The translations under genes and the position numbers were made by a program. A stretch of 42,829 nt of DNA, from NCBI GenBank assembly GCA_027064005.1, contig JAMOQM010000088.1, positions 1 to 42,829 of the forward strand. Reading direction: 5' to 3'. Origin of the DNA: Candidatus Cloacimonadota bacterium (GTDB taxonomy: Bacteria; Cloacimonadota; Cloacimonadia; Cloacimonadales; JAMOQM01). Of this stretch, positions 12,478 to 27,231 are shown one piece after another (within the stretch, counting starts at the first letter, position 1; every line of letters starts with the position of its first letter). The notes under the pieces are model-generated. The model was not told the DNA's origin and searched no databases. It was given only the letters and a program-made list of their open reading frames with translations.

Positions 12478-12488
12478 GGAGAATGTTA

Positions 12489-15400
12489 ATGAAGAAAATT
12501 TTATTAATCGGTATTTTGATGGTTTTTGGATTATTGAATGCTGTTGGCAATCAACAATCTAAAGTATTTAATCTTGAGAAATCATCAAGAAGCTCTGTTT
12601 CTGTTAATTTTCATGTTGAAAACTACAATCAGACAAATGAAACAATTAAAGGGAAAACTTATTCTCATTTTGAAAATGAAAATTCAGCACCTACTTTGAC
12701 TACCGGTAAGCCGGAGTTGCCATTTTTTTCAACCTATATTCAATTACCGAATACGGGAATAGTTGACGTAAATTATACGATAAATTCGGTAAATGAATTT
12801 CAACCTCAAAATCAGCCATATCCTTCTCAAGGAGCGGGATTTGAAGATTTAAGAACAGGCTTTGCTTATGATGAAGATTATTATCAAAACGGATCTGAGT
12901 TCCCAAATAAATTAGTGTCTGTTGGTGAACCCCAAATAATAAGAGGCGTGCGAGTTGCTGCTCTTCATGTATATCCTCTTCATTACAATGCTTCCGAAAA
13001 TAAAATGAAAGATTATAAAGATATTACTATTTCTTTATCTTTCCACGAAGCGGAAAAAGGTATTAATGAAATTACCACAAATAGAAATACAAAAATGTCA
13101 AAGCCATTTGAAAATCTTTTTGGTGGAATGGTTGTTAATTATCATAATGATAGAACAGAATTTCAACAACCATCTGCTATAATTATCTATAATTCTACGT
13201 TAGCTATCGAAAATTTAGTAGAGAATCTTGCTGAACAAAAAAGAAGAAAAGGTTTTGAGGTTGCAGTAGCAAATCAAGATGTTTGCGGAACTTCAACAAC
13301 TTCAATTAAAAATTATATTCAAAATGCTTATGATACTTGGGAAAATCCACCGGAATTTATTATCCTTGTTGGTGATGTTGATGGTTCAATTCACGTTCCT
13401 GCGTGGAATGAAACATTTAGCGGATTCAATGGAGAAGGTGATGTTCCTTATGTTCAATTGGAAGGAAATGATACTTTGCCGGACGCTTTTGTCGGGCGTA
13501 TTTCCGTTTCATCAATTACTCAATTACAAACTTATGTGAATAAAGAAATTAGATATGAAACTTCTCCCACTATTTCCGGTTCTAGTTGGATGAACCATTC
13601 AGTATTAGTTGGAGATACTACTCCCTCAGGGAATTCTTGTGTTTTTACAGTAAAATATGCAAAAGAGTTGTTGTTGCAAAATGACCCAACTTCCACTTTT
13701 ACAGAACTTTACGGTGGAGATCCAAGTGCATCAGAAACAAATATGGCTTTGAATAACGGTTCTCTTTTCTATTATTATAGAGGTTGGATTGGAATGAGTG
13801 GTTGGGGAAGTTCCGAGATTTCAAGTCTCACAAACACAAATAAACTTTTCAACGCAGTTATAATAACTTGCGATACCGGAACATACTCCGGAACAAGTAG
13901 AACAGAATTGGTTATCAGAGCAGGAACTCCCGGCAATTTGAAAGGTGGAATTTCAGCTATCGGAATGGTAACTTCTCACACGCACACAACTTTTAACAAT
14001 ATTTTATCAGGTGGTATTTCTTACGGATTAGTTGTTGATAATATGAGAACAATGGGAGAAGCTATTAATATGGGACGTTATGCACTTCACATGGCTTATG
14101 ACGATAGCAATCCTTCTCAGGCAAATACTTTTGCTCACTGGATAAATCTTATGGGAGATCCATCAGTTAGTGCTTATATTACGATACCTAAAACTTTGAA
14201 TGTTCAATATCTATCTTCACTTCCGGCCGGTTCAAACAGTATTCTTGTAAATGTTACCGATGAAGATAATGTTGCTGTTGCTGATGCAAAAGTTACTCTT
14301 TATCAAGCAGAAAGTGGTTTATCAATTTCCGGTAACTCAGATGAAAATGGTCAAGTTCGACTTTATTTCGATCCAAATACAACCGGTGAAGTTTTAGTAA
14401 CAGCAACTAAAGATGACTATATTCAAAACAATGGTTCTGTTATTTTGAATGGACAACCGACAATTTCAATTACCAATATTGATGTTGATGACTCAAACGG
14501 AAATAACAATCAACAGCTTAATCCGGGTGAAACAGCCGGTTTAATGATTTCAGTAAAGAATTTTACTTCTGAAACTATTACAGGGTTAAATTGTGTTCTT
14601 ACAACTAATGATGAATATGTTGAAATTGAAAATCCAACTCAGGATTTGGCAAGTATTGAGCCGGGTACAACTATCGGAATAGTTGGTTTTGAAGTTACAA
14701 TACCTCCAAATTGCCCGAATAATCATCAAATTAACTTCTTACTTTCTTTAACAGACGATAGCGGAAACGATTATCAAAGTTATTATGTATTACAATCTTT
14801 GACCGGTGATGCGGAAATAGTTTCTTATCAAGTTAATGATGGCGGGAATAATATTATAGATCCGGGAGAAAGCGGAAATATTTCCTTTACTCTTAATAAT
14901 ATCGGAACTCAACCTCTGAGCAATGTTTATGCAAAATTAATTTCAATGAGTAACCAATTTATCGTTAATGATTCAATAGCATCTTTTGGTGATATTAATC
15001 CTGATGAAAGTGTTGATTGTTCTGCTGATGAATTTTCTTATGAAACTTTAACTCAATTAATTACAGGTCAAAAAATACCGGTAAAATTAATTATTTTTAA
15101 CGATGACGGTTATCAAGAAATTGAAGATTATTCTTTAACCGTTGGTAACGCAACTTTAACAGATCCTCTCGGACCGGATTCATACGGATATGTTTGTTAT
15201 GATGATGGAGATACAACTTATGAAGATTGCCCTACTTATGATTGGATTGAATGCGATCCGAGTCAAGGCGGTTACGAAGGTACTCAAGTTTCTTTAAATG
15301 ATAACGGTGATAATCAAGACGATGTAACTCAGGTAGATTTACCGTTTACGTTTAAATTTTACGGTATAGATTATGACAATATTTCAATCTGTTCCAATGG

Positions 15401-17873
15401 TTGGATTTCATTTTTACCGACCGCCCAAGCTCAATTCAGAAATTGGAGAATTCCGGGACCACTCGGACCCGGAGCTATGATTGCCGCTTTTTGGGATGAT
15501 CTATATGGTGGAAATGTTTACACATATTATCTTACGAATGAACATAAATTTGTTATTGAGTGGTCAAACGTTAATAATGCCGGTGGTGGAAATGAGACAT
15601 TTGAAATTGTATTGTACGATCCACAAGCTTACCCAACAATTACAGATGACGGTCCAATTAAAATTCAATATAAAAACTGGGTAAGTCAGGACACAGGTTC
15701 TTCCAGTACTCACGGAAATTATTGCACTGTTGGAATTGAAGATCATACTCAAACAAGAGGTTTGGAATATACTTTTAATAATGAATATCCAACAACTGCA
15801 AAACCACTCGGAAATGAAACTGCCATATTCTTTACAGGTCTTCCGATGTCTCCTGATGGCGTTTATCTTTCTCTAGGAAATATCGACTTGCATGATCAAA
15901 ATGACTCCGGTTATTTAGATGCCGGTGAAACCGTTGATTTAGGAGTTTCAATTAGAAATATTGGTATGACTGATGTCTCTAATGTTCAAGCTGTTTTATC
16001 TTGCACGGATCAATATGTTACTTTGAATAATTCTGACAGCGTTTATCCGTTCATCCAAGCCGGTCATGCCGCTTCAAACGATTCTTATTTTAATTTCTCC
16101 GTTTCTTCTGATTGTCCGGCTGATCATAATATTGATTTTCAGCTTGATTTAACTGCTGCTAATTATACAAGATTATTAAATTTTAGTCTTAAAGTAAATA
16201 AAGCATCTATCGATTTTGGAGATTTGTTGGTTTGGGATGGAACAGGAAATAATGACGGAATTGCCGATCCGGGTGAAACAATTAATTTGATTGTACCAAT
16301 CGAAAATAATTCATTTTCAAATACCGGAGAATTAAATGTAAGCCTTTCTTCATCTAATCCAAATATATCTATAACTAATGGATTACATATTCTTAATAAT
16401 GTACCTATTTCGAAGACTTTACAAGTTAGCTTTGAAATATTGATTAATTCTAATTGTCCTGATAATGAAAATGCCGAATTTGAAATAAACGTTTCCGGTG
16501 AAAATATAAGCACTATTAATTCTTCCTACAATCTCGGGATTGGGTTTTCTTCTTTTAGCAGTGATTTTGAAGAAGATAATGGCGGGTTAACTGCCGACAA
16601 CGGTTGGGAATGGGGTGTTGATAATTCTATTGGTGCTCATTCAGGGACAAAAGTTTGGGGTACGGTTTTAAATGGCGATTACGGAGATAATGCAAATTAT
16701 AACTTGGATACTCCGGAAATTATGATTCCTAATCAATCCACTTTGCAATTTTATCACAAATATGCATTTGAAAATAACTGGGATGGTTCTCAACTTCAAA
16801 TTTCTATTGATGGCGGAAATTCATTCGATATCTTAATACCAAATGAAGGATATCCTTCTGACGGAGTTTCAGCTGTACAAGGACCTTGCTATAATGGAAC
16901 AATTAATGATTGGCAATTAGTTACTGCAGATTTATCTCAATATGGTTCAAATAATATTATTATTAGATGGCATATGGCTTCTGATGTTAGTGTAACAAAA
17001 ACCGGTTGGTATATTGATGACTTAACGATAAACACGGTTCCGGTTCCATTATCTGAAGTTACCGGTAATATTGGAGTTGAAGGTGGAAATGCAATGCCTT
17101 CACAAGTAATTGTTTCAGCCGGAGATAACTCAACTTGTCCAAATAATGATGGTGATTACCAACTTTTTGTAATACCCGGTTCTTATGATATTACAACAAC
17201 TCTTGCCGGTTATGAAGATGGTATTTATGAAAATATCAACTGCCAATCAGGTGTTGTTGTTGGTGATAAAGATTTTGTTCTACATTATCTTACTCCTGTT
17301 TCTAATTTAACTTATGAGATGAATCCGATTCAAGATGAAAGTGGCGTTTTATTAAATTGGGATTCATTAACAAACAGAAGTTTCTCAAATTATGAAGTTT
17401 ATAAACAACACGGTAGCGGCTCATTTATCAAAATAAGTTCTCCAACGGAAAATTCATATTATGATTCGGATGTTATAGATTCTCATTATAGATATTACGT
17501 TGTTGCTGCTTATTCAAACGGTAAGAGTGAAAAATCTAACGTTGTTGATTTTGATTATTCTGTTACAGATAATGATGATATTAATAATCCGGTTTTAGTT
17601 AATTCATTAAAAGGAAATTATCCAAATCCGTTTAATCCGGAAACGACAATTAAATTCTCAACTGCAAAATCTTCTCACGTTCAATTGAAAATTTATAATA
17701 TCAAAGGACAATTAGTGAAGACTTTAGTTAATGAAAATATGAATGCCGGAAATCATCAGGTTCTCTGGAAAGGTAAAAATAACAATAATAAATCGGTTTC
17801 ATCCGGAGTTTATCTCTATAGATTGAAATCTGACAAATATGTATCTGTAAAAAAAGCTATCCTGCTTAAATAA
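12489..17873 (+). CDS. Type IX-secreted C25 (gingipain-like) family protein, multidomain
   Basis: A 1,794-residue exported protein. The second ATG (12489) is chosen because AAGGAG lies 7 nt before it; the first ATG is only 1-2 nt away. Residue numbers count from the first ATG. A signal peptide (ILLIGILMVFGLLNA) is followed by a propeptide-like region to about 225, then a C25 peptidase domain at about 228-565: ILVGDVDG, DAFVGRI, an acid-rich patch, Cys463 in VIITCDTG, and the closing HWINLMGDPS. In gingipains a GHG carries the catalytic His; here that segment reads YRGWIGMSGWG (432-442), so activity is uncertain. Then come four CARDB-like units each with a PGE(T/S) turn, a lectin/MAM-like region, a carboxypeptidase-regulatory-like fold, an FnIII-like unit, and the sorting domain (YPNPFNPETTIKF ... 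KKAILLK). Confidence 0.88.
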   Translation: MKKILLIGILMVFGLLNAVGNQQSKVFNLEKSSRSSVSVNFHVENYNQTNETIKGKTYSHFENENSAPTLTTGKPELPFFSTYIQLPNTGIVDVNYTINSVNEFQPQNQPYPSQGAGFEDLRTGFAYDEDYYQNGSEFPNKLVSVGEPQIIRGVRVAALHVYPLHYNASENKMKDYKDITISLSFHEAEKGINEITTNRNTKMSKPFENLFGGMVVNYHNDRTEFQQPSAIIIYNSTLAIENLVENLAEQKRRKGFEVAVANQDVCGTSTTSIKNYIQNAYDTWENPPEFIILVGDVDGSIHVPAWNETFSGFNGEGDVPYVQLEGNDTLPDAFVGRISVSSITQLQTYVNKEIRYETSPTISGSSWMNHSVLVGDTTPSGNSCVFTVKYAKELLLQNDPTSTFTELYGGDPSASETNMALNNGSLFYYYRGWIGMSGWGSSEISSLTNTNKLFNAVIITCDTGTYSGTSRTELVIRAGTPGNLKGGISAIGMVTSHTHTTFNNILSGGISYGLVVDNMRTMGEAINMGRYALHMAYDDSNPSQANTFAHWINLMGDPSVSAYITIPKTLNVQYLSSLPAGSNSILVNVTDEDNVAVADAKVTLYQAESGLSISGNSDENGQVRLYFDPNTTGEVLVTATKDDYIQNNGSVILNGQPTISITNIDVDDSNGNNNQQLNPGETAGLMISVKNFTSETITGLNCVLTTNDEYVEIENPTQDLASIEPGTTIGIVGFEVTIPPNCPNNHQINFLLSLTDDSGNDYQSYYVLQSLTGDAEIVSYQVNDGGNNIIDPGESGNISFTLNNIGTQPLSNVYAKLISMSNQFIVNDSIASFGDINPDESVDCSADEFSYETLTQLITGQKIPVKLIIFNDDGYQEIEDYSLTVGNATLTDPLGPDSYGYVCYDDGDTTYEDCPTYDWIECDPSQGGYEGTQVSLNDNGDNQDDVTQVDLPFTFKFYGIDYDNISICSNGWISFLPTAQAQFRNWRIPGPLGPGAMIAAFWDDLYGGNVYTYYLTNEHKFVIEWSNVNNAGGGNETFEIVLYDPQAYPTITDDGPIKIQYKNWVSQDTGSSSTHGNYCTVGIEDHTQTRGLEYTFNNEYPTTAKPLGNETAIFFTGLPMSPDGVYLSLGNIDLHDQNDSGYLDAGETVDLGVSIRNIGMTDVSNVQAVLSCTDQYVTLNNSDSVYPFIQAGHAASNDSYFNFSVSSDCPADHNIDFQLDLTAANYTRLLNFSLKVNKASIDFGDLLVWDGTGNNDGIADPGETINLIVPIENNSFSNTGELNVSLSSSNPNISITNGLHILNNVPISKTLQVSFEILINSNCPDNENAEFEINVSGENISTINSSYNLGIGFSSFSSDFEEDNGGLTADNGWEWGVDNSIGAHSGTKVWGTVLNGDYGDNANYNLDTPEIMIPNQSTLQFYHKYAFENNWDGSQLQISIDGGNSFDILIPNEGYPSDGVSAVQGPCYNGTINDWQLVTADLSQYGSNNIIIRWHMASDVSVTKTGWYIDDLTINTVPVPLSEVTGNIGVEGGNAMPSQVIVSAGDNSTCPNNDGDYQLFVIPGSYDITTTLAGYEDGIYENINCQSGVVVGDKDFVLHYLTPVSNLTYEMNPIQDESGVLLNWDSLTNRSFSNYEVYKQHGSGSFIKISSPTENSYYDSDVIDSHYRYYVVAAYSNGKSEKSNVVDFDYSVTDNDDINNPVLVNSLKGNYPNPFNPETTIKFSTAKSSHVQLKIYNIKGQLVKTLVNENMNAGNHQVLWKGKNNNNKSVSSGVYLYRLKSDKYVSVKKAILLK

Positions 17874-17894
17874 GATGCATTTCTCTCCCAAACG

Positions 17895-17921
17895 AGCCGA
17901 TCCGAAAGGGTCGGCTTTTTT
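17895..17921 (+). terminator. Strong intrinsic terminator after the C25 gene
   Basis: AGCCGATCC (17895-17903) pairs with GGGTCGGCT (17908-17916), one G-U pair, around a GAAA tetraloop and followed by TTTTTT. A textbook terminator that isolates the exported-protein block from the accessory island. Confidence 0.93.
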
Positions 17922-18157: not shown

Positions 18158-19711
18158 GTGTATAATATTGCAATAGATTTTGGAACAACCAACACAATTA
18201 TCGGGATTTACAATCTTGATGTTTCGCATTTTGAAGTATTTGATATAAAAAAAATCTCCAAAACGATAGGGAGTTATCGGGCAATCCCAACAAAAATAGG
18301 ATATAAAAATAAGAGTGAGTACTATATTGGTAATCATCCGGAACTGCTGAATTTACCGGATCAACACATTTTTTATAAGATGAAACTCTATTTTTCAAAA
18401 TTTCGTTCAAGACCTGTTAAAATTGGGAATGATAGAATTGACCATCAGCAAGCTGCCAAAAATTTTCTATCATTGATTTTGGATTTGATTCTGGCAAAAT
18501 ATGATAAAGATGAAATAGATACTTTTATTATAACTGCCCCGGTAATTAGTTTTGATAAATACCGAGTTTTTCTTTCGGAAATTTGCGAAACAAAAAATAT
18601 ATATAATTATCAAATTTTAGATGAGCCAACTGCTGTTGCTTTAGGATATGATGCTATTGCTTCTCCCGATTATCCATATATGGTTATTGATTTTGGTGGT
18701 GGCACGTTAGATGTAAATGTTATTCGTCTGAACAATGCAAAAAAAGTAAATGAAGTTAGCATTTTGGGTAAATCAGGTTCAAATATCGGTGGTTCATATA
18801 TTGATAATTGGCTTTTGAAAGATTTTTTACAAAAACAGAATTTAGAACTTTCCGATATTTCTCACTTAAAAAATGAATTATTGGATAAACTTGAAAATCT
18901 TAAAATTGAGATAAACAATACAGGGATTTCTGAATTTTTCATTGAAGATAAAAAAAATGACTTTGAGATGAACTACCGGCTTTCTCTTTCTGAATTTGAA
19001 CAAATTTTGGAAGCTAATTATTTTGATGAAACAATTCAAGAAACTATCGATAATGCTGTTGAATCGGCTATTCAATCCGGAATAAGAAAAAGAGATATTA
19101 AACAGATATTTTTGGTTGGAGGAAGTTCGCTTATAAAACATTTTCAAAAGATAGTTGCCAATAATTTTAGAGATAAAATTACAATTTCCGAACCGTTTTC
19201 AGCTGTGATAAAAGGCGGTTGTAAATTTATTTCCGGCTCAATTGTTGAAGATTTTTTACACCATAATTACTCAATTCAACATTTCAATAAAAATAGAGGA
19301 TTTTATGAATATGAAACGATTGTTCCCCAAAAAACAAAATTCCCGCAAAATAACGTTAAACAACTAATAATTGCTACTCCGTTTTCAGGACAGGAAGAAA
19401 TTGAACTTAAATTCTTTGAAGTAATGACCAATATTTATAATGAAGATAAAATCGAAGATATTACTTTTGATGAAAACGGTAATCTGATTGTGATTAGAGA
19501 TGAATTAGAACAGGATAAATCCCGTAAAGTTGTACCTTTGAATACAAATACTCGCTGTTTTATTACTCTTAATCCTCCCGGTATTAAATCGGAAGATAGA
19601 ATAAAACTTACCTTTCACCTAAATCAAAACAGAATATTATTGGTTGACGCAATCGATCTGAAAACAAATAAAAAATATTATGATAAATTTGAAATTGCAA
19701 GGTTGAAATGA
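18158..19711 (+). CDS. Hsp70-like actin-fold ATPase
   Basis: A 517-residue protein beginning at a GTG 6-7 nt after AAGGAGA. The Hsp70/actin nucleotide fold is complete: phosphate-1 loop DFGTTNT at residues 7-13, DEPTAVALGYD in the connect region, phosphate-2 VIDFGGGTLDVNVIRL near 176-191, GGSYIDNWL, and the adenosine motif FLVGGSSLIKHFQKI near 319-333. After about residue 370 the sequence is beta-rich and unlike the substrate domain of DnaK in detail; the helical lid seems absent. It is therefore not the housekeeping DnaK, and neither dnaJ nor grpE is nearby. First gene of the island; a repeat protein follows after 101 bp. It may recognise or remodel a client, or act as a nucleotide switch (inference). 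Confidence 0.88.
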   Translation: MYNIAIDFGTTNTIIGIYNLDVSHFEVFDIKKISKTIGSYRAIPTKIGYKNKSEYYIGNHPELLNLPDQHIFYKMKLYFSKFRSRPVKIGNDRIDHQQAAKNFLSLILDLILAKYDKDEIDTFIITAPVISFDKYRVFLSEICETKNIYNYQILDEPTAVALGYDAIASPDYPYMVIDFGGGTLDVNVIRLNNAKKVNEVSILGKSGSNIGGSYIDNWLLKDFLQKQNLELSDISHLKNELLDKLENLKIEINNTGISEFFIEDKKNDFEMNYRLSLSEFEQILEANYFDETIQETIDNAVESAIQSGIRKRDIKQIFLVGGSSLIKHFQKIVANNFRDKITISEPFSAVIKGGCKFISGSIVEDFLHHNYSIQHFNKNRGFYEYETIVPQKTKFPQNNVKQLIIATPFSGQEEIELKFFEVMTNIYNEDKIEDITFDENGNLIVIRDELEQDKSRKVVPLNTNTRCFITLNPPGIKSEDRIKLTFHLNQNRILLVDAIDLKTNKKYYDKFEIARLK

Positions 19712-19815
19712 TGGTTTGAGAGTAGGATTGAAGAAAAATGTTTATGACAAAGATAGGTGTTACCATTTAAAAGGTTTATCGGCCATTTTAAAGGTAAGAA
19801 TATGAGGAGATAATG

Positions 19816-22611
19816 ATGTTATTTTTTATAAAAAATAATCCTGAAAAATTATTGGGAAAATTTAAGAAAACAAATGAGACTGAATTGAAAACAAAAATTA
19901 TTATTCAGCTTATTAAACTCGATGCCGAAAAAGAAATATTAGAAATCTTTAAAGAAAATAAAACTGAAATTATAGAATACTATCTGTTTAGGAAATATAA
20001 AGATAATCCTGAAAGATTATTTTGGTTATATCAAAACGGTGTTGATAAACAAAAAACAATTGAACAAATGATTAAACTCGATGCTGAAAAAGAAATATTA
20101 GAAATTTTTAAAGAAAATAAAACTAAAATTATACAAAACTATCTATTACAAAAATATATAAAAAATAATGATATGAAGAGACTTAGACAGATAAGAAAAA
20201 CAGTTGAACCTTCTGTATATTATGCAAATGAAATTGATTTGTCAAAATTGGGATTTAACTCTTTTTTCTCTAAATATTTCGACATCATTAAACTTATTAA
20301 AACGAATGAAAGTTTATTTCAAAAGTTTTTTTCCAGTTTATCAGGGAAATATAAATTATACTTCTTTCTTTCACATTTCAATCTAAAAAGATTTTTGCCG
20401 GCATTGGAATATTCTCAAAAATACAAGAATCTTCTTATCTATTTTGATAAAATCGGTGATTGTGTAAGTTATAAATTGGATAATTTTAGTAAACTGTTTG
20501 AAGAAGTTTATTCTGTTGCTCAAAAAGAAAAATCAATTGAACTATTTAGATTAGCTTACCTTTTAGATAAAAAAAAATATCAGCAAAAACTAAAATATAT
20601 TGAAACAAAATTAATAATTAGCAATGATTTAAGTTTCTCAAGAAGAAACTTAGATAAAAGATATTCTGGTTTAATAAACAACGCAACGCAAAAGCAGGAA
20701 GTTGAAAGATTAATTAATGAGAAGAAACAAGAAATCAAAAGTTTATATTCCAAAGAAATATATGATTTACAAAATAATATTTTATTTTTCCCAAAACCAA
20801 TTAAAAAAAATGATTTTGCAGAACAAGAAAAAAATGTTACTAATAAGATATATAAATTCAACTTAGAACATATATTAAAAGAATATACAATAGTTGAAAA
20901 TGTAGAAAATTCGAAAAGCTTAATTAATTCGAATTTAAAACGCCAATTAGAATATCTTGAAGATGCTAATGAGATTATGAAACTGAAAAACAGAGCTAAT
21001 AAAAATATTGATAGTTTGGTTAGTATTAAAGATTTTTGTCATATTGTTGAATGTCTAAAACCAAATCTAACAGATAAACCTCAAGTTATAAATATTTTAG
21101 GAAAAATCTTGTCCGAAACGAAATTTGAGCAAGTCCGGAAAGCTATTCTTATCTTCTCTGCCAAGAGTACAAACAGACTTTGGTTAAAATATATTCACAA
21201 AATATCTTATTTACAAAAATTACAATCTGATATTTTGAATTCTATAAAAAATAAATTCTCAACTTGGAATTTAAAATTTCTCTCTAAAATATCTAATTTA
21301 ACCAATAACAGCATTAGAAAAATTAGAACCTTAAATGGACATTCAAGGCGTATTAGTAGTGTATCTTTTTCACGCGATGGGCAAACTCTTGCTTCCTATA
21401 GTGATGATAGAACAATCAAACTTTGGGATGTTGCCACCGGCAGAGAAATTAAAGCCATAAGTGGAAATTTTCCCGTGTTTTCACCCGAAGGGCAAATTCT
21501 TGCTTCTTGTGGTGGTGAGGAAATCAAACTTTGGGATGTTGCCACCGGCAGAGAAATTAAAGCCATAAGTGGAAATTTTCCCGTGTTTTCACCCGAAGGG
21601 CAAATTCTTGCTTCTTGTGGTGGTGAGGAAATCAAACTTTGGAATGTTACCACCGGTAGAGAAATAAAAACCTTAAGAGGACATTCAGATTATATTTGTA
21701 GTGTATCTTTTTCACCCGACGGGCAAACTCTTGCTTCTTGTAGTGGTGAGGAAATCAAACTTTGGGACGTTGCCACCGGTAAAGAAATCAAAACCATAAG
21801 TGGACATTCTCCTGTATTCTCACCCGACGGACATACTCTTGCTTCTGTTGATTATTGCACAATCAAACTTTGGAATGTTGCCACCGGTAAAGAAATCAAA
21901 GCCTTAAGTGGACATTCAAATGATATTAAGAGTGTATCTTTTTCACCCGATGGGCAAATTCTTGCTTCCGGTAGTAGGGATAAAACAGTCAAACTTTGGG
22001 ATGTTGGCGCCGGCAGAGAAATCAAAACCTTAGGGCATTCAGATCATATTAATAGTGTATCTTTTTCACCCGATAGCAAAATTCTTGCTTCCGTTAGTAA
22101 TGATGGGACAATCAAACTTTGGAATGTTGCCACCGGTAAAGAAATCAAAACCTTAAGTGGACATTCTCCTGTATTCTCACCCGACGGACAAACTCTTGCT
22201 TCTGTTGATTATTGGACAATCAAACTTTGGAATGTTGCCACCGGTAAAGAAATCAAAACCTTAAGTGGACATTCAAATGATATTAAGAGTGTATCTTTTT
22301 CACCCGATAGCAAAATTCTTGCTTTTGTTAGTGATGATAAAACAATCAAACTTTGGGATTTATCGCTCTACCTTAAGGCACAATTGGTTTTAATAAATCA
22401 CCTTTTATATTTTACTTTAAATCCAAGTGTAGAAGATATAAAAGATTTAATTGAGTTTAAAAACAATATTCACAAATTACCGTCAAATATGCAAAAACCT
22501 ATAGAGAATATTGTAAATAATATAATTGAGAAAGCGGGTAAAGAATCAAAAACAATAGAAATATCAAGCGAGAATAAACCGGAAAGTAAAGATATTGAGA
22601 TTAAGTATTAG
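19816..22611 (+). CDS. Large protein with alpha-helical N-terminus and nine-unit WD40 array
   Basis: About 931 residues. Two adjacent ATGs exist (19813 and 19816); AGGAG at 19805-19809 favours the second. Residues 1-500 are Lys-rich and helical, beginning with two near-identical 53-residue repeats (IKLDAEKEILEIFKENKT). Residues of about 507-850 are nine WD40 units with IKLWDVATG cores; five are about 41-42 residues and four only 36, lacking the strand between GH and FSPDG. A helical tail follows. No catalytic site is seen. WD40 arrays with highly similar repeats are typical scaffold or recognition parts of bacterial NTPase conflict systems. Neighbours are an Hsp70-like gene and an OLD-like ATPase; the exact role is unknown. 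Confidence 0.85.
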   Translation: MLFFIKNNPEKLLGKFKKTNETELKTKIIIQLIKLDAEKEILEIFKENKTEIIEYYLFRKYKDNPERLFWLYQNGVDKQKTIEQMIKLDAEKEILEIFKENKTKIIQNYLLQKYIKNNDMKRLRQIRKTVEPSVYYANEIDLSKLGFNSFFSKYFDIIKLIKTNESLFQKFFSSLSGKYKLYFFLSHFNLKRFLPALEYSQKYKNLLIYFDKIGDCVSYKLDNFSKLFEEVYSVAQKEKSIELFRLAYLLDKKKYQQKLKYIETKLIISNDLSFSRRNLDKRYSGLINNATQKQEVERLINEKKQEIKSLYSKEIYDLQNNILFFPKPIKKNDFAEQEKNVTNKIYKFNLEHILKEYTIVENVENSKSLINSNLKRQLEYLEDANEIMKLKNRANKNIDSLVSIKDFCHIVECLKPNLTDKPQVINILGKILSETKFEQVRKAILIFSAKSTNRLWLKYIHKISYLQKLQSDILNSIKNKFSTWNLKFLSKISNLTNNSIRKIRTLNGHSRRISSVSFSRDGQTLASYSDDRTIKLWDVATGREIKAISGNFPVFSPEGQILASCGGEEIKLWDVATGREIKAISGNFPVFSPEGQILASCGGEEIKLWNVTTGREIKTLRGHSDYICSVSFSPDGQTLASCSGEEIKLWDVATGKEIKTISGHSPVFSPDGHTLASVDYCTIKLWNVATGKEIKALSGHSNDIKSVSFSPDGQILASGSRDKTVKLWDVGAGREIKTLGHSDHINSVSFSPDSKILASVSNDGTIKLWNVATGKEIKTLSGHSPVFSPDGQTLASVDYWTIKLWNVATGKEIKTLSGHSNDIKSVSFSPDSKILAFVSDDKTIKLWDLSLYLKAQLVLINHLLYFTLNPSVEDIKDLIEFKNNIHKLPSNMQKPIENIVNNIIEKAGKESKTIEISSENKPESKDIEIKY
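19912..20160 (+). repeat. Tandem 159-bp internal duplication in the WD40 protein gene
   Basis: ATTAAACTCGATGC followed by GAAAAAGAAATATTAGAAAT occurs at 19912 and again at 20071, in frame, so the unit is 159 bp or 53 codons. The copies differ at only a few positions over the first 60 bp, which indicates a recent duplication. Confidence 0.8.
21332..22365 (+). repeat. WD40-coding repeat array with recent unit duplications
   Basis: Nine in-frame units of 108 or about 126 bp. Units 2 and 3 are 108-bp copies nearly identical in DNA (CTTTGGGATG at 21421 and 21529; both contain GGAAATTTTCCCGTGTTTTC). The pair of units 5-6 is echoed by units 8-9. Such nucleotide-level identity shows recent expansion or recombination within the array rather than old protein repeats. 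Confidence 0.85.
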
Positions 22612-22728
22612 GAAATATGAGGAAAAGGTTTGAGAGTGATTTATAAGTTAAATTTTATTTATTCTTTACAGAAATCACTGCTTATTAGCTTTTAAAGGAA
22701 AATGGATAATTAGATATTAGTCGGAGGA

Positions 22729-23829
22729 ATGGTGAAAATAAAAAATATTGAAGTAAAAAATTTTAAATCAATAAAAGAGATGAATCTCAAATTAGAGAAT
22801 ATAAATATTTTTATTGGAGCAAATGGGGCTGGAAAATCTAACTTTATATCTTTATTTGAAATGTTAGATTCTATTAGCAAAGAAAGATTTCGTAATTGGG
22901 TAAGAGAAAATGTCGGTGCAGAAAATATTCTTCATTTTGGTTTAAAAGAATCCAATTTTCTTTCGGTAGAAATAGAATTTGATCAAAACAAATATTCATT
23001 TATTCTTCAACCTCAAAAAGACGGCTCATTATATTTTAACAAAGAAAAAATAGGTTATTATACAATAAATGAAAAATTTTCAGAAACTATTATTGGACAG
23101 GGTCATTCCGAGACCAAAATATATGACTATCAAAAAATTACTCTAAACGCTAACGGCTATAGTGGCATACCGGATTATATTGTTGATGGTTTACAAAATT
23201 GGAAAGTTTATCATTTTCACGATACATCAGCCACTTCAAAAATGAAACAACCGGCATCTATTAAAAATAATAAAACTTTAGAAAATGATGCAAGTAATTT
23301 AGCCGGGAATCTATATTATCTCAAAAAAATCAATCCCCAATTATTAGAAAAAATAGAAAGTTATATTCGTTTGATTTTGCCATATTTTGATAAATTTGTT
23401 TTGGAACCATACGGTCAAAATCCTCAAAAAATAAATCTTGAATGGCTACACTATAATTCTGATAAAACATTTGGAGCATATCAACTTTCAGACGGTACAT
23501 TGCGATTTATTTGTTTGGTTACGCTTCTTCATCAAAATATTCCTCCAAAAGTTATTATAATTGATGAGCCTGAATTGGGTTTACATCCGTATGCTATTAC
23601 TGTTTTGGCAGATATTATCAAAAAACAATCATCTTCAACACAAATCTTTATTGCTACCCAATCAATTGAATTGATAAATGAAATGTTACCTGAAGATATT
23701 ATTGTGGTCGATAATATTGAAGGAGCTTCAACATTTAAACGTTTGAGACAAGAAGAATTGGAAAAATGGTTAGAAGATTATTCTCTTGGTGAGATTTGGC
23801 AAAAAAATCTGTTGGGGGGAAGACCATAA
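22729..23829 (+). CDS. OLD-like/SMC-type AAA ATPase (AAA_21 family)
   Basis: A 366-residue ABC-type ATPase. Walker A GANGAGKSN is at residues 30-38, and a signature region is SDGTLRFICLVTLL. Walker B KVIIIDEPELGLHP is near 277-290, and the H-loop region is IATQSIELINEM. The domain begins MVKIKNIEVKNFKSIKEMNL, typical of RecF/OLD-like DNA-end or effector ATPases. GGAGG lies one base from the ATG (22729) and four from the GTG at 22732, so the second may be the true start. The stop overlaps the start of the next gene by one base (TAATG), so the ATPase and the DUF4276 protein are coupled and likely work as a pair, as in OLD, PARIS or AbiL-type defence modules. That function is inferred. Confidence 0.88.
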   Translation: MVKIKNIEVKNFKSIKEMNLKLENINIFIGANGAGKSNFISLFEMLDSISKERFRNWVRENVGAENILHFGLKESNFLSVEIEFDQNKYSFILQPQKDGSLYFNKEKIGYYTINEKFSETIIGQGHSETKIYDYQKITLNANGYSGIPDYIVDGLQNWKVYHFHDTSATSKMKQPASIKNNKTLENDASNLAGNLYYLKKINPQLLEKIESYIRLILPYFDKFVLEPYGQNPQKINLEWLHYNSDKTFGAYQLSDGTLRFICLVTLLHQNIPPKVIIIDEPELGLHPYAITVLADIIKKQSSSTQIFIATQSIELINEMLPEDIIVVDNIEGASTFKRLRQEELEKWLEDYSLGEIWQKNLLGGRP

Positions 23830-24491
23830 TGATTAGAATAGCAATTTTGGTTGAAGGTCAAACAGAAGAAAAATTTGTAAAACAGCTTTTGGTTAATGAA
23901 TTTATGGCAAATGGAATATCTATAATTCCAATCATCTTAAAAACAAGTAGAGAGACTTCCGGTAATTCATATAAAGGTGGTTATATAACATTCACAAAAG
24001 TTAAAAAAGAATTACAAAATCTATTATCAAATTTTGATTATATCTCAACAATGTTTGATTATTATGGCTTGAGCCACGATTTTCCCCGTTATCAAGAATC
24101 AAAAGAATGTAATAATGTTTATGAAAAGGCAAAGATGGTTGAGGATGCTTTGGCAGAGGAAATAAGCTCTATAAAATTCATTCCATATATTCAAATGTAT
24201 GAATTCGAAGCTTTATTATTTTCTTCAATTAAAGGCTTTAAGAAACATTATGGTTATAGAAATGCTGAAATTCAAGCAGTAATTAATCAATATCCAAATC
24301 CTGAAATTATAAATGATAGCAAAGAAACCGCTCCCTCAAAGCGTATTGAAAATATTTTCGGAAAGAATAAATTTAGAAAAACTTCTGATGGAATTATCGT
24401 TGCCAAAGAGTTAGGTTTAGAGATTATCAGAACAAAATGTAAGCATTTTAATGAATGGTTAAAAAAAATAGAAGGAGTTTTACAATGTTAA
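23829..24491 (+). CDS. DUF4276 protein, TOPRIM-like putative nuclease
   Basis: A 220-residue protein starting MIRIAILVEGQTEEKFVKQL; this start overlaps the ATPase stop by one base, while a longer frame from 23796 lies inside the ATPase gene. VEGQTEE (residues 8-14) supplies the conserved Glu of a TOPRIM-like fold, and MFDYYGL near residue 73-79 the following acidic strand. The central IPYIQMYEFEALLFS is the hallmark of DUF4276. Members are usually encoded next to an AAA_21 ATPase, as here, and are suspected effectors. Metal-dependent nuclease activity is plausible but not shown by sequence alone. Its 3' end overlaps the start of the next gene by 7 bases. Confidence 0.85.
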   Translation: MIRIAILVEGQTEEKFVKQLLVNEFMANGISIIPIILKTSRETSGNSYKGGYITFTKVKKELQNLLSNFDYISTMFDYYGLSHDFPRYQESKECNNVYEKAKMVEDALAEEISSIKFIPYIQMYEFEALLFSSIKGFKKHYGYRNAEIQAVINQYPNPEIINDSKETAPSKRIENIFGKNKFRKTSDGIIVAKELGLEIIRTKCKHFNEWLKKIEGVLQC

Positions 24492-25981
24492 AAGAATTAG
24501 AACTGAATATCAAAGTTAGAAATACACTAATATTTATAAAAACAATTGAAGAATTTAGATTGATGAAAGATTTAGAAAAATTAAGCGGAAGATTAAATTA
24601 TCAATTTAAAGAGTGGAATTTTGGAGATGACCAAAAGCCTTTAGAATTTCTAAAGAAAATTAATAAAGATCAAAATCCGACTTTATATATTATGCGAGAT
24701 TTGAATCTGTTTTTTAAGGAAGATGGCGTTGGTTTACGACTTATGAGTACTCTTAAAAACCTTAAAAATATTCTAAAAAATCAAAAGAAAATAATTATTG
24801 TAATTTCATCTATAAGAAAAATACACGAAAGTATTAAAAAAGATTTTCTGATTTTAGATGATCCGCTTCCTAATTACGATAATATCAAAAAAGCAATAGA
24901 TGATTTTTTACAAAGAAATAATCTTGAACAAAACCTTTCTGAAAGTCTAAAAGACAGAATTATTCTTTCATCATTGGGTTTGACAATTGATCAGGTAAAT
25001 AAAATATTTGCTAAAACAATTCAAAAAAATAAAAAATTAGATGAAAAATGTTTAAATCAAATTATTGCAGAAAAAAAACTGGTTATTGGTCAAAATAATG
25101 TTCTTGATTTTTATGATGTGAGTGAAACTATCAATAATGTCGGCGGATTAAATCAATTGAAGAATTGGCTTAAAATTCGTTCAAAAGCTTTTTCTCAAAA
25201 TGCCAAAGATTACGGATTACCGCAACCAAAAGGCTTATTGATGCTTGGAGTGCAAGGTACCGGTAAAAGTCTGACAGCAAAAGCTGTTTCTTCGCTTTGG
25301 CGTTTACCACTTCTAAAACTGGATATTGGCAGAGTTTTTGGCAGTTTGGTAGGAGAATCTGAAAGTAGAATTAGAGAAGCTATCAAAATAGCGGAAACAA
25401 TTTCACCCTGCATTTTATGGATAGATGAGATAGATAAAGCATTTGCCGGAATGGGTGGACAACAAGGCGATAGTGGAACAAGTGCACGTGTCTTTGGGAC
25501 TTTGATAACGTGGATGCAGGAAAAGACAAAACCGGTATTTATTGTAGCAACTGCCAATGATATTAGTAAATTGCCGGCTGAAATGCTTCGAAAAGGCAGA
25601 TTTGATGAAATCTTTTTTGTTGATATTCCAAATGAATATGAAAGAGAAGAAATTTTTAAAATACATATCGAAAAGACACAACGTGATATCCAACTTTTTG
25701 ACTTAATAAGTTTAGTGGAAAAATCAAAAGAATTTACGGGTGCAGAAATTGAACAGGCTATTAAAGATGCAATGTATATTGCTTTTGCTGATTCTGAAAG
25801 AGAATTTACAACTGATGACATTTTAGTTTCTTTGCAAAATACAGTTCCTCTTTCTCAAATGAAAAAAGAACAAATTACCGAGCTTAGAAATTGGGCAAAA
25901 GAAAGTGCTAGAATGGCAAGTTATGAAGATATAAAGAAATCTATCAAACCTACAATATTAGACAATGAAATAATTTATTAG
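24485..25981 (+). CDS. Ycf46-like AAA+ ATPase
   Basis: A 498-residue AAA+ protein; the ATG at 24485 has GGAG 7-8 nt upstream and overlaps the previous gene. Residues 1-200 form the Ycf46-type N-terminal region (TLYIMRDLNLFF; RNTLIFIKTIEE). The AAA+ core has Walker A GVQGTGKS at 255-262, Walker B CILWIDEIDKA at 309-319, sensor 1 Asn359 in ATANDISKLP, arginine fingers in MLRKGRFDEIFF (367-378) and sensor 2 TGAEIEQAI at 418-426. There is no protease or membrane segment as in FtsH. Ycf46 is conserved in cyanobacteria and red-algal plastids with no firm mechanism. Here it is coupled upstream to the OLD-like pair and downstream (8 bp) to a Ycf35-like gene, so a substrate-remodelling role in this complex is likely. 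Confidence 0.88.
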   Translation: MLKELELNIKVRNTLIFIKTIEEFRLMKDLEKLSGRLNYQFKEWNFGDDQKPLEFLKKINKDQNPTLYIMRDLNLFFKEDGVGLRLMSTLKNLKNILKNQKKIIIVISSIRKIHESIKKDFLILDDPLPNYDNIKKAIDDFLQRNNLEQNLSESLKDRIILSSLGLTIDQVNKIFAKTIQKNKKLDEKCLNQIIAEKKLVIGQNNVLDFYDVSETINNVGGLNQLKNWLKIRSKAFSQNAKDYGLPQPKGLLMLGVQGTGKSLTAKAVSSLWRLPLLKLDIGRVFGSLVGESESRIREAIKIAETISPCILWIDEIDKAFAGMGGQQGDSGTSARVFGTLITWMQEKTKPVFIVATANDISKLPAEMLRKGRFDEIFFVDIPNEYEREEIFKIHIEKTQRDIQLFDLISLVEKSKEFTGAEIEQAIKDAMYIAFADSEREFTTDDILVSLQNTVPLSQMKKEQITELRNWAKESARMASYEDIKKSIKPTILDNEIIY

Positions 25982-25989
25982 GAGGAAAT

Positions 25990-26400
25990 ATGTCGCATTT
26001 TAGTAAAATTAAAACAAGAATATCTAATAAAAAATATCTTATTCAAGCACTTAAACAGATGAATTATAATATCGAAGAAAATTCTAAATGTGTTGGATAT
26101 AACGGTAATAAAATTGATGCCGATATTGTGATAAAATTGCCTGAAACTAATTATAATCTAGCTTTTATCAAATCGGATAACAGTTATGATTTAGTAGCTG
26201 ATTGGTATGGTCTGAGAGGTTTGGATTCTAAGAACATAGTTAGCAAAATTGAAGAAAATATCACTATTATTGAAAATAAGATAAAGCAACAATATGCTTA
26301 TAATAGTACTGTGGAGAGTTTGAAAGAAAAAGGTTTTAGTATTGATGAAGAGATTAGAGAAAATGGTGAAATAAGAATTAAACTTTCAAGAATTGTATAG
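25990..26400 (+). CDS. DUF1257 (Ycf35-like) protein
   Basis: A 136-residue protein beginning MSHFSKIKTRISNKKYLIQA, with ADIVIKLPETNYNLAFIK, SYDLVADWYGLRG, then the end motif QQYAYNSTVESLKEKGFSID and EIRIKLSRIV. This order (MSHFS start, YDLVAD, RYAY..L...GF) is the DUF1257/Ycf35 pattern. Ycf35 is encoded in cyanobacteria and several plastids and has no assigned function. It starts 8 bp after the Ycf46-like gene behind GGAGGAAAT and ends 8 bp before the DUF2997 gene. It has no signal peptide or membrane helix and is cytosolic. Confidence 0.88.
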   Translation: MSHFSKIKTRISNKKYLIQALKQMNYNIEENSKCVGYNGNKIDADIVIKLPETNYNLAFIKSDNSYDLVADWYGLRGLDSKNIVSKIEENITIIENKIKQQYAYNSTVESLKEKGFSIDEEIRENGEIRIKLSRIV

Positions 26401-26408
26401 AGGTAATT

Positions 26409-26609
26409 ATGGAATATCAAAATATTGAAATTAAAATTGGAAAAAACGGAAAGGTATTTTTAGAGGTAAGCGGTGTTAAAGGGAAAAAATGTTTATTGCT
26501 GACAAAAGAGTTGGAAGAAGCATTAGGAGATATCGAGAATAGAGAATTTAAACCTGAATTTGATGATGAAGATTTTGATGAAGACAATATTTTAACAACT
26601 GAACTATGA
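26409..26609 (+). CDS. DUF2997 protein
   Basis: A 66-residue protein: a short beta-rich N-terminus (IEIKIGKNGKVFLEVSGVKG), a conserved Cys in KKCLLLTKELEEALG, then an acidic tail (EFDDEDFDEDN). The pattern G-V-x-G-x-x-C-x-x-L/T-x-x-LE-x-x-LG is DUF2997. This family commonly travels with DUF1257. Its small size, single conserved Cys and coupling to a radical SAM gene make it a candidate substrate or carrier for that enzyme (inference). Its stop overlaps the next start by four bases (ATGA). Confidence 0.8.
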   Translation: MEYQNIEIKIGKNGKVFLEVSGVKGKKCLLLTKELEEALGDIENREFKPEFDDEDFDEDNILTTEL

Positions 26610-27151
26610 AGTTAAGGATTCACAATTTTATTGAGAAAACTTCTGTTAATGGTCCCGGAATAAGGTTTGGATTATGGGTTCAAGGGTGTAATTTAAAATG
26701 TCCATATTGTTTTAATCCCCAAACTCATTCTTTTGACGGTGGTAAATTATACGAGGTAGAAGATATTTTTAATAAAATATTAGCCGTAAATGGAATTGAG
26801 GGAATATCTATTTCAGGAGGAGAACCTTTTTTGCAACCGAAACCTCTATTAGAATTAGTAAGATTAATTAAGGAAAATACAAATCTTACAATATTAATTT
26901 TCACCGGTTTTTATTTGTCTGAATTAGTTAAAAGAAGTCTTGCAAATAAAATTTTGACTTTTGTTGATGTTCTAATAGCCGGACGATATATTAAAGAAAA
27001 ACAAATAAATGACTATTTACGTTCATCGGATAATCAACAAATTCATTTTTTGAGTGATAGATATACAATGCAAAATCTAAAGCAAAAATCAACTGAAATA
27101 ATAATTGATGAAAAAGGGAATTTAGTTATGTCAGGTATTTTGAAAATTTAA
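26606..27151 (+). CDS. NrdG-like radical SAM activating-type enzyme
   Basis: A 181-residue radical SAM protein. Cys28, Cys32 and Cys35 in GCNLKCPYCF form the CxxxCxxC motif for the SAM-binding 4Fe-4S cluster, GGEPF at 71-75 is the SAM amino-group motif, and the N-terminal NGPGIRFGLWVQGC is typical of NrdG/PflA-type activases. No nrdD, pflB or other glycyl-radical enzyme lies in the window, so a normal activase role is unsupported; the substrate is probably a partner in this operon. It overlaps the DUF2997 stop by four bases (ATGA) and is the last gene before the hairpin at 27189. The length is complete for a minimal activase. Confidence 0.88.
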   Translation: MKLRIHNFIEKTSVNGPGIRFGLWVQGCNLKCPYCFNPQTHSFDGGKLYEVEDIFNKILAVNGIEGISISGGEPFLQPKPLLELVRLIKENTNLTILIFTGFYLSELVKRSLANKILTFVDVLIAGRYIKEKQINDYLRSSDNQQIHFLSDRYTMQNLKQKSTEIIIDEKGNLVMSGILKI

Positions 27152-27188
27152 AGATAAAATGGAAATAAGGAATTAATTTTCCGATTTG

Positions 27189-27231
27189 TATAACTTCTTC
27201 TGTATAAGCAATACAAAAGAAGTTATATTTT
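27189..27231. terminator. Long AT-rich hairpin at the end of the island
   Basis: TATAACTTCTT (27189-27199) pairs with AAGAAGTTATA (27217-27227), and an inner TGTAT/ATACA stem closes the loop; TTTTAG follows. It lies 38 bp after the radical SAM stop and faces a convergent gene, so a bidirectional terminator is likely. The low GC makes it weaker than the one at 17895. Confidence 0.6.

Follow-up and report, generated by a model that had tools for sequence, protein, structure and literature searches.

A tight six-gene core recurs in bacteria and archaea

A set of six genes, encoding a lidless Hsp70, a HEAT/WD40 protein, the AAA+ ATPase Ycf46, DUF1257, DUF2997 and an NrdG-like radical SAM enzyme, recurs in bacteria and archaea. 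In the window (the whole 42,829-nucleotide stretch of a Candidatus Cloacimonadota contig that was analysed) a candidate defence pair is embedded in it. We consider the chances even that this set is a mobile protein-remodelling system, used in genome conflict, with a defence cassette inside. What appears to be new is the gene set; the chemistry of its parts is not. Six genes kept together in both domains despite reordering, with no named function in the open-access literature, are rare. The set is undescribed in that literature (subscription papers and bioRxiv lay outside the search). The earlier note on this DNA had said that the combination of all eight genes had, to its author's knowledge, no named function.

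In the window, eight open reading frames run in the same direction on the + strand at the coordinates claimed by the earlier note, and Pfam matches bear out the families it had assigned (Hsp70, WD40, AAA_21, DUF4276, AAA/Ycf46, DUF1257, DUF2997 and Fer4_12/radical SAM). As it had also said, neighbours among genes 3-8 either overlap or have 8 nt between them, and the two hairpins that bound the block are real. From reading of the sequence, internal ATGs are better starts for gene 4 (23829) and gene 5 (24485), giving overlaps of 1 and 7 nt. The features are:

17894..17917, + strand: intrinsic terminator 5′ of the block (T tract present; fold z -4.0)
18158..19711, + strand: lidless Hsp70-like protein, 517 aa, core gene (PF00012, E 1e-22)
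19813..22611, + strand: WD40 beta-propeller protein, 932 aa, with a long N-terminal region (PF00400, E 1e-76)
21367..22359, + strand: tandem DNA repeats encoding WD blades, periods 108-123 bp (Tandem Repeats Finder)
22729..23829, + strand: HEC-01A, OLD-like ABC ATPase, embedded, non-core (PADLOC HEC-01A, E 6e-139)
23829..24491, + strand: HEC-01B, DUF4276 TOPRIM-like, embedded; ATG 23829 preferred over TTG 23796 (PADLOC HEC-01B, E 4e-78)
24485..25981, + strand: Ycf46-type AAA+ ATPase; open reading frame listed from 24455 (PF00004, E 4e-30)
25990..26400, + strand: DUF1257 (Ycf35-like), core gene (PF06868, E 5e-17)
26409..26609, + strand: DUF2997, small, with an acidic tail and a conserved Cys, core gene (PF11211, E 7e-17; alignment)
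26606..27151, + strand: NrdG/PflA-like radical SAM enzyme, core gene (PF13353, E 2e-34)
27188..27228 (about), + strand: strong hairpin 3′ of the block (fold z -5.3; T tract weak)

Of 125 genomes from the host phylum, the source genome alone had DUF1257, and the block therefore looks imported and foreign to this lineage. The upstream neighbour, at window positions 12483-17873, is a gingipain-like C25 peptidase (PF01364) of 1796 aa whose C-terminal tail is of the sorting type.

Loci were gathered by tblastn of plasmids, by a genome-wide scan seeded with Ycf46, and by DUF1257 searches phylum by phylum. Locus maps showed the core as a tight block, with nearly all gaps short, in at least eight gene orders. 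Its hosts were Planctomycetes, Chloroflexi, Actinobacteria, cyanobacteria, cyanobacterial plasmids and methanogens; the Pseudanabaena plasmid found by tblastn reads GrpE–Hsp70–DUF1257–(pair)–DUF2997–Ycf46–WD40. The 23 loci with the system Hsp70 all had HEAT/WD40 and DUF2997, with DUF1257 in 22/23 and radical SAM in 19/23. Across 81 loci, Hsp70 was associated with HEAT/WD40 (Fisher p 1e-12, relatedness ignored); independent phylogenetic contrasts were too few for significance, and none opposes the Hsp70–propeller link. Among about 244-245 methanogen-group archaeal genomes, Hsp70 and DUF1257 occurred in exactly the same nine. In methanogens the site of the block is constant, next to genes for tRNA-splicing endonuclease and Trp/Phe-tRNA synthetase, which gives the block the appearance of a stable physiological role. 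Presence was sporadic, at 1-4% of genomes in most sampled phyla.

The core has also moved between phyla. In trees, Hsp70 and Ycf46 of the Pseudanabaena plasmid each group with Planctomycete/Chloroflexi copies, and this concordant placement indicates that the gene set was transferred together. A single origin of the system Ycf46 proteins was rejected, as they do not form one clade (AU p 1e-58). The neighbourhood search that the earlier note had proposed as a check on its eight-gene unit joined Hsp70-WD40 and Ycf46-DUF1257-DUF2997-radical SAM in one recurrent system, and the ATPase/DUF4276 pair proved not to belong to the core. The eight-gene unit itself stands in part: the six-gene core recurs, but genes 3 and 4 are HEC-01 and are missing from the closest relative and from nearly all operons.

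Defence pairs are embedded in the core operon

By their sequence matches, genes 3 and 4 are HEC-01, a candidate defence pair that lies within the operon and is not core. Both match strongly and in the same order, HEC-01B being directly downstream of HEC-01A with the genes overlapping. HEC-01B also matches PF14103 (E 9e-50), and HEC-01A has the Walker motifs of an ABC ATPase (GANGAGKS, VIIIDEPE). HEC-01 comes from a preprint (Payne et al. 2024, as cited by PMC12988326) and, according to PMC12988326, is a candidate defence pair defined elsewhere and embedded in Hma. In the window, by contrast, the pair sits in a chaperone operon, and the remaining six genes fall outside HEC-01.

The closest relative, L048 (Ycf46 68% and Hsp70 57% identical), has the core without HEC-01; 20 nt separate its Ycf46 from the preceding gene, at the junction where the window has the pair. 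Some 20 operons besides L048 have the core without such a pair, and most operons are cassette-free. Where other operons carry pairs, these differ in insertion position from HEC-01 in the window. They include HEC-02 in the Pseudanabaena plasmid operon (PADLOC E 3e-148), an AbiL pair in a Geminocystis plasmid operon (PADLOC E 1e-78) and an AT-rich EcoRI REase/MTase pair in Anaerolineaceae L049 (PADLOC E 3e-124), so that, with HEC-01, 4/4 PADLOC-tested embedded pairs were defence genes. Defence genes made up 8/12 embedded versus 3/115 flanking proteins (PADLOC, p 6e-8; the counts are small and the loci were picked after inspection). L038 and L049, which enter these counts, are partial systems without the system Hsp70. 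With 3/115 flanking proteins being defence genes, the loci do not lie in defence islands.

Pairs of an ABC ATPase and a small protein recur as well (L037, L038, L250/L251). In L250/L251 the pair lies between DUF2997 and GrpE; it is absent in L252/L256, and L254 retains a remnant. Ycf46 is 96-98% identical among cyanobacterial operons that differ by an ABC-ATPase pair.

The motor is conserved and the presumed recognition parts diverge

Six methanogens share the site of the block; among them, mean identity was 72% for Ycf46, 35% for Hsp70 and 31% for HEAT/WD40, with intermediate values for DUF1257 (48%), DUF2997 (45%) and radical SAM (49%). In comparison, flanking genes of the same six showed 63–75% and canonical DnaK 84% identity. 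Ten bacterial loci gave 69% for Ycf46, 52% for Hsp70 and 28% for HEAT/WD40. Judged by these identities, the motor Ycf46 is conserved, whereas the presumed recognition parts, namely the WD40 protein and, in methanogens, Hsp70, diverge fast.

The WD40 protein is the most variable core gene (between-locus identity 28-31%). Motif counting gave nine WD blades in the window, and a 108-bp repeat with 90% matches makes up part of the WD array, which makes a recent expansion of the array plausible. Relatives at other loci have HEAT repeats N-terminal of the propeller. At L252:1-4180, a HEAT/WD40-type gene stands in tandem copies ahead of Ycf46, and near-identical sister operons differ.

Hsp70 lacks the lid, as the earlier note had said. 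Its top PDB match, 2v7y (a DnaK chain of 509 residues), aligned to the nucleotide-binding domain and SBD-beta, after which the protein ends. It shares with the DnaK-GrpE system the Hsp70 ATPase domain, SBD-beta and, at many loci, an adjoining GrpE gene. It differs in the absent C-terminal helical lid, in scoring 83.7 bits where the DnaK equivalog model requires 822.6, and in forming a separate clade, divided from the four DnaK sequences by a branch with 100/100 support; in the annotated operon of the plasmid no DnaJ gene was seen. The Hsp70 of L049, considered as a system member, is a true DnaK by the tree, and it was dropped from the seeds and the counts redone. An apparent Hsp70 fusion in L117 was a reading-frame artefact of GC-rich DNA. 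At L069:8297-9814 and L080:2809-4326, the system Hsp70 has degraded phosphate (ATP-binding) loops (FFNNVN, FGYTT), and these are likely ATP-dead versions. Cyanobacteria have a broader Hsp70 family, with lidless paralogues solitary in many genomes; in one cyanobacterium (L248:8826-10385) a stop breaks the system Hsp70 gene, and several WD40 genes adjoin.

The Ycf46 model resembles p97, and its gene is linked to one for a radical SAM enzyme

The AF2 model of Ycf46 (pLDDT 84) has the tandem AAA fold of p97/Cdc48, with a Foldseek match to p97 D1-D2 (E 2e-25, TM about 0.7 over the tandem). Unlike p97, its first AAA domain lacks a Walker A motif, and a single Walker A was found in 24/24 relatives. 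Eukaryotic p97/Cdc48 works with Hsp70 and WD40/ARM cofactors, and the core's propeller and helical-repeat partner is reminiscent of PLAA/Ufd3. The gene set has no ubiquitin-like gene, and the resemblance would concern only the way of working, not membership. An apparent Ycf46-DUF1257 fusion in L059 was, again, a reading-frame artefact of GC-rich DNA.

The AF2 model of DUF1257 (pLDDT 84) had no fold match in the PDB at E<=0.001. DUF1257 was considered as a glycyl-radical protein because of its NrdD-like GYxG motif; the idea was rejected, as the alignment lacks the motif at some radical-SAM loci. The conserved Cys of DUF2997, a candidate target of the radical SAM enzyme, is equally conserved in loci without the enzyme. 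The enzyme itself has intact CxxxCxxC and GGEP motifs in the window, and these are whole in nearly all loci, one Cys being lost in L057. It is like NrdG in its radical SAM core and motifs, but it falls under the NrdG NCBIfam equivalog cut-off (115.9 versus 126.1 bits) and no NrdD was observed in the operons examined. It may have a protein-modification role.

Ycf46, DUF1257 and DUF2997 are by themselves commonplace in cyanobacteria and plastids, and the three families are linked in the window as in the cyanobacterial/plastid Ycf46-Ycf35-DUF2997 module. An Fe-S protein accompanies both. In cyanobacterial cluster g this is the ferredoxin Fed7, linked to DUF2997-Ycf35 (PMC4284462); by Pfam the window has no Fed7 at the module and has radical SAM in its place, with the lidless Hsp70 and HEAT/WD40 added. 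Ycf46/Ycf35, conserved yet unexplained in cyanobacteria and plastids, are thereby connected with chaperone genes and with a radical SAM enzyme, a clue to their role. The NTP-dependent conflict systems of Kaur et al. 2020 (PMC7159879) include GAP1-N2 GTPase systems that contain Hsp70/GrpE, and MoxR-vWA ternary systems that contain beta-propellers and radical SAM. Like the operon in the window, they bring together ATPases of the chaperone type, repeats that form superstructures and effectors that can be exchanged. In contrast, the eight window proteins gave no Pfam match to MoxR, vWA or the GAP1-N2 GTPase, and that paper is silent on DUF1257.

A proposed remodelling system for genome conflict, and its alternatives

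In the mechanism that we propose, the HEAT/WD40 protein would recognise the client and the lidless Hsp70, joined by GrpE in many relatives, would hold it; the rapidly evolving propeller and Hsp70 may bind one particular protein, probably of foreign origin. The p97/Cdc48-like Ycf46 ring, which is conserved, with DUF1257 and DUF2997 as partners, would then unfold or remodel the bound protein, and the NrdG-like radical SAM step may modify a protein, marking or activating a component. Optional nuclease-type pairs, here the ABC ATPase and TOPRIM-like DUF4276 of HEC-01, would supply killing or DNA cleavage. Arguing the other way are the cassette-free majority of operons, the ordinary occurrence of Ycf46, DUF1257 and DUF2997 by themselves in cyanobacteria and plastids, the solitary lidless Hsp70 paralogues of cyanobacteria and the failure of the system Ycf46 proteins to form one clade. 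With a candidate defence pair embedded in the core, a new chaperone-driven defence system is a serious possibility. More tentatively, the core may represent a new class of prokaryotic immunity, in which a p97-like unfoldase, a lidless Hsp70 and a radical SAM enzyme serve a fast-changing HEAT/WD40 receptor that senses foreign proteins, with swappable ABC-ATPase/nuclease effectors; we regard this wider claim as possible but less likely than not. Protection of cells by the core would make it an immune system built on a chaperone and an unfoldase; without such protection, it would add another prokaryotic Hsp70-unfoldase pairing alongside ClpB-DnaK.

The core could instead be a machine dedicated to the quality control or maturation of a cellular client, such as an Fe-S or radical enzyme, with defence pairs merely inserting into a well-expressed operon. 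The fixed chromosomal site in methanogens, the ferredoxin that adjoins cyanobacterial DUF2997-Ycf35 in place of radical SAM (PMC4284462), the canonical chaperone and unfoldase folds, and flanks that are not defence islands all fit such a machine. They are set against an Hsp70 and propeller that diverge far faster than DnaK and flanking genes, presence in 1-4% of genomes in most sampled phyla, inserted pairs that were all defence genes when tested, and flanks among which no client gene recurs; on balance we find this account possible but less likely than not. The embedding, the rapid divergence and the sporadic spread lead us to favour defence over cellular maturation, a preference weakened by flanks of ordinary content and by the constant site in methanogens.

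It is unlikely that all eight genes form one obligate system with HEC-01 as its dedicated effector, as the earlier note had proposed. The genes do overlap in the window, and the ABC-ATPase and small-protein pairs of L037, L038 and L250/L251 resemble an effector slot, but the pair-free core in L048 and some 20 operons weakens this reading, pair presence varies between near-identical operons, and HEC-01 is, according to PMC12988326, defined elsewhere and embedded in Hma. Still less credible, to the point of being very improbable, is that Hsp70-WD40 and the Ycf46 block are functionally unlinked neighbours brought together by chance in a gene island. Every family is also found away from the others; against this stand contiguous operons that recur in both bacteria and archaea with their genes in varying order, an identical Hsp70/DUF1257 presence pattern in 244 archaeal genomes, and the concordant transfer of Hsp70 and Ycf46. 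As a general account, chance is refuted by the recurrent operons and the archaeal co-presence.

Parts of the module in other contexts

Members of the Ycf46 module were also seen elsewhere. On a Treponema succinifaciens plasmid, DUF1257 (L039:8001-8408) lies amid genes for the tail sheath and baseplate of a contractile particle, and radical SAM and Ycf46 (L042:5369-7524) lie amid contractile-particle genes, a further context for the sub-module. A 205-kb Bacillus licheniformis plasmid with phage-like replication genes carries Ycf46, DUF1257, DUF2997 and radical SAM without Hsp70 or WD40 (L040:1637-8946). In L064:4374-8706 and cyanobacterial loci like it, YidC-like membrane insertase and R3H genes adjoin a copy of Ycf46. 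A Ycf46-like AAA protein is found on >500 enterobacterial conjugative plasmids, the match covering the C-terminal two thirds in most rows sampled.
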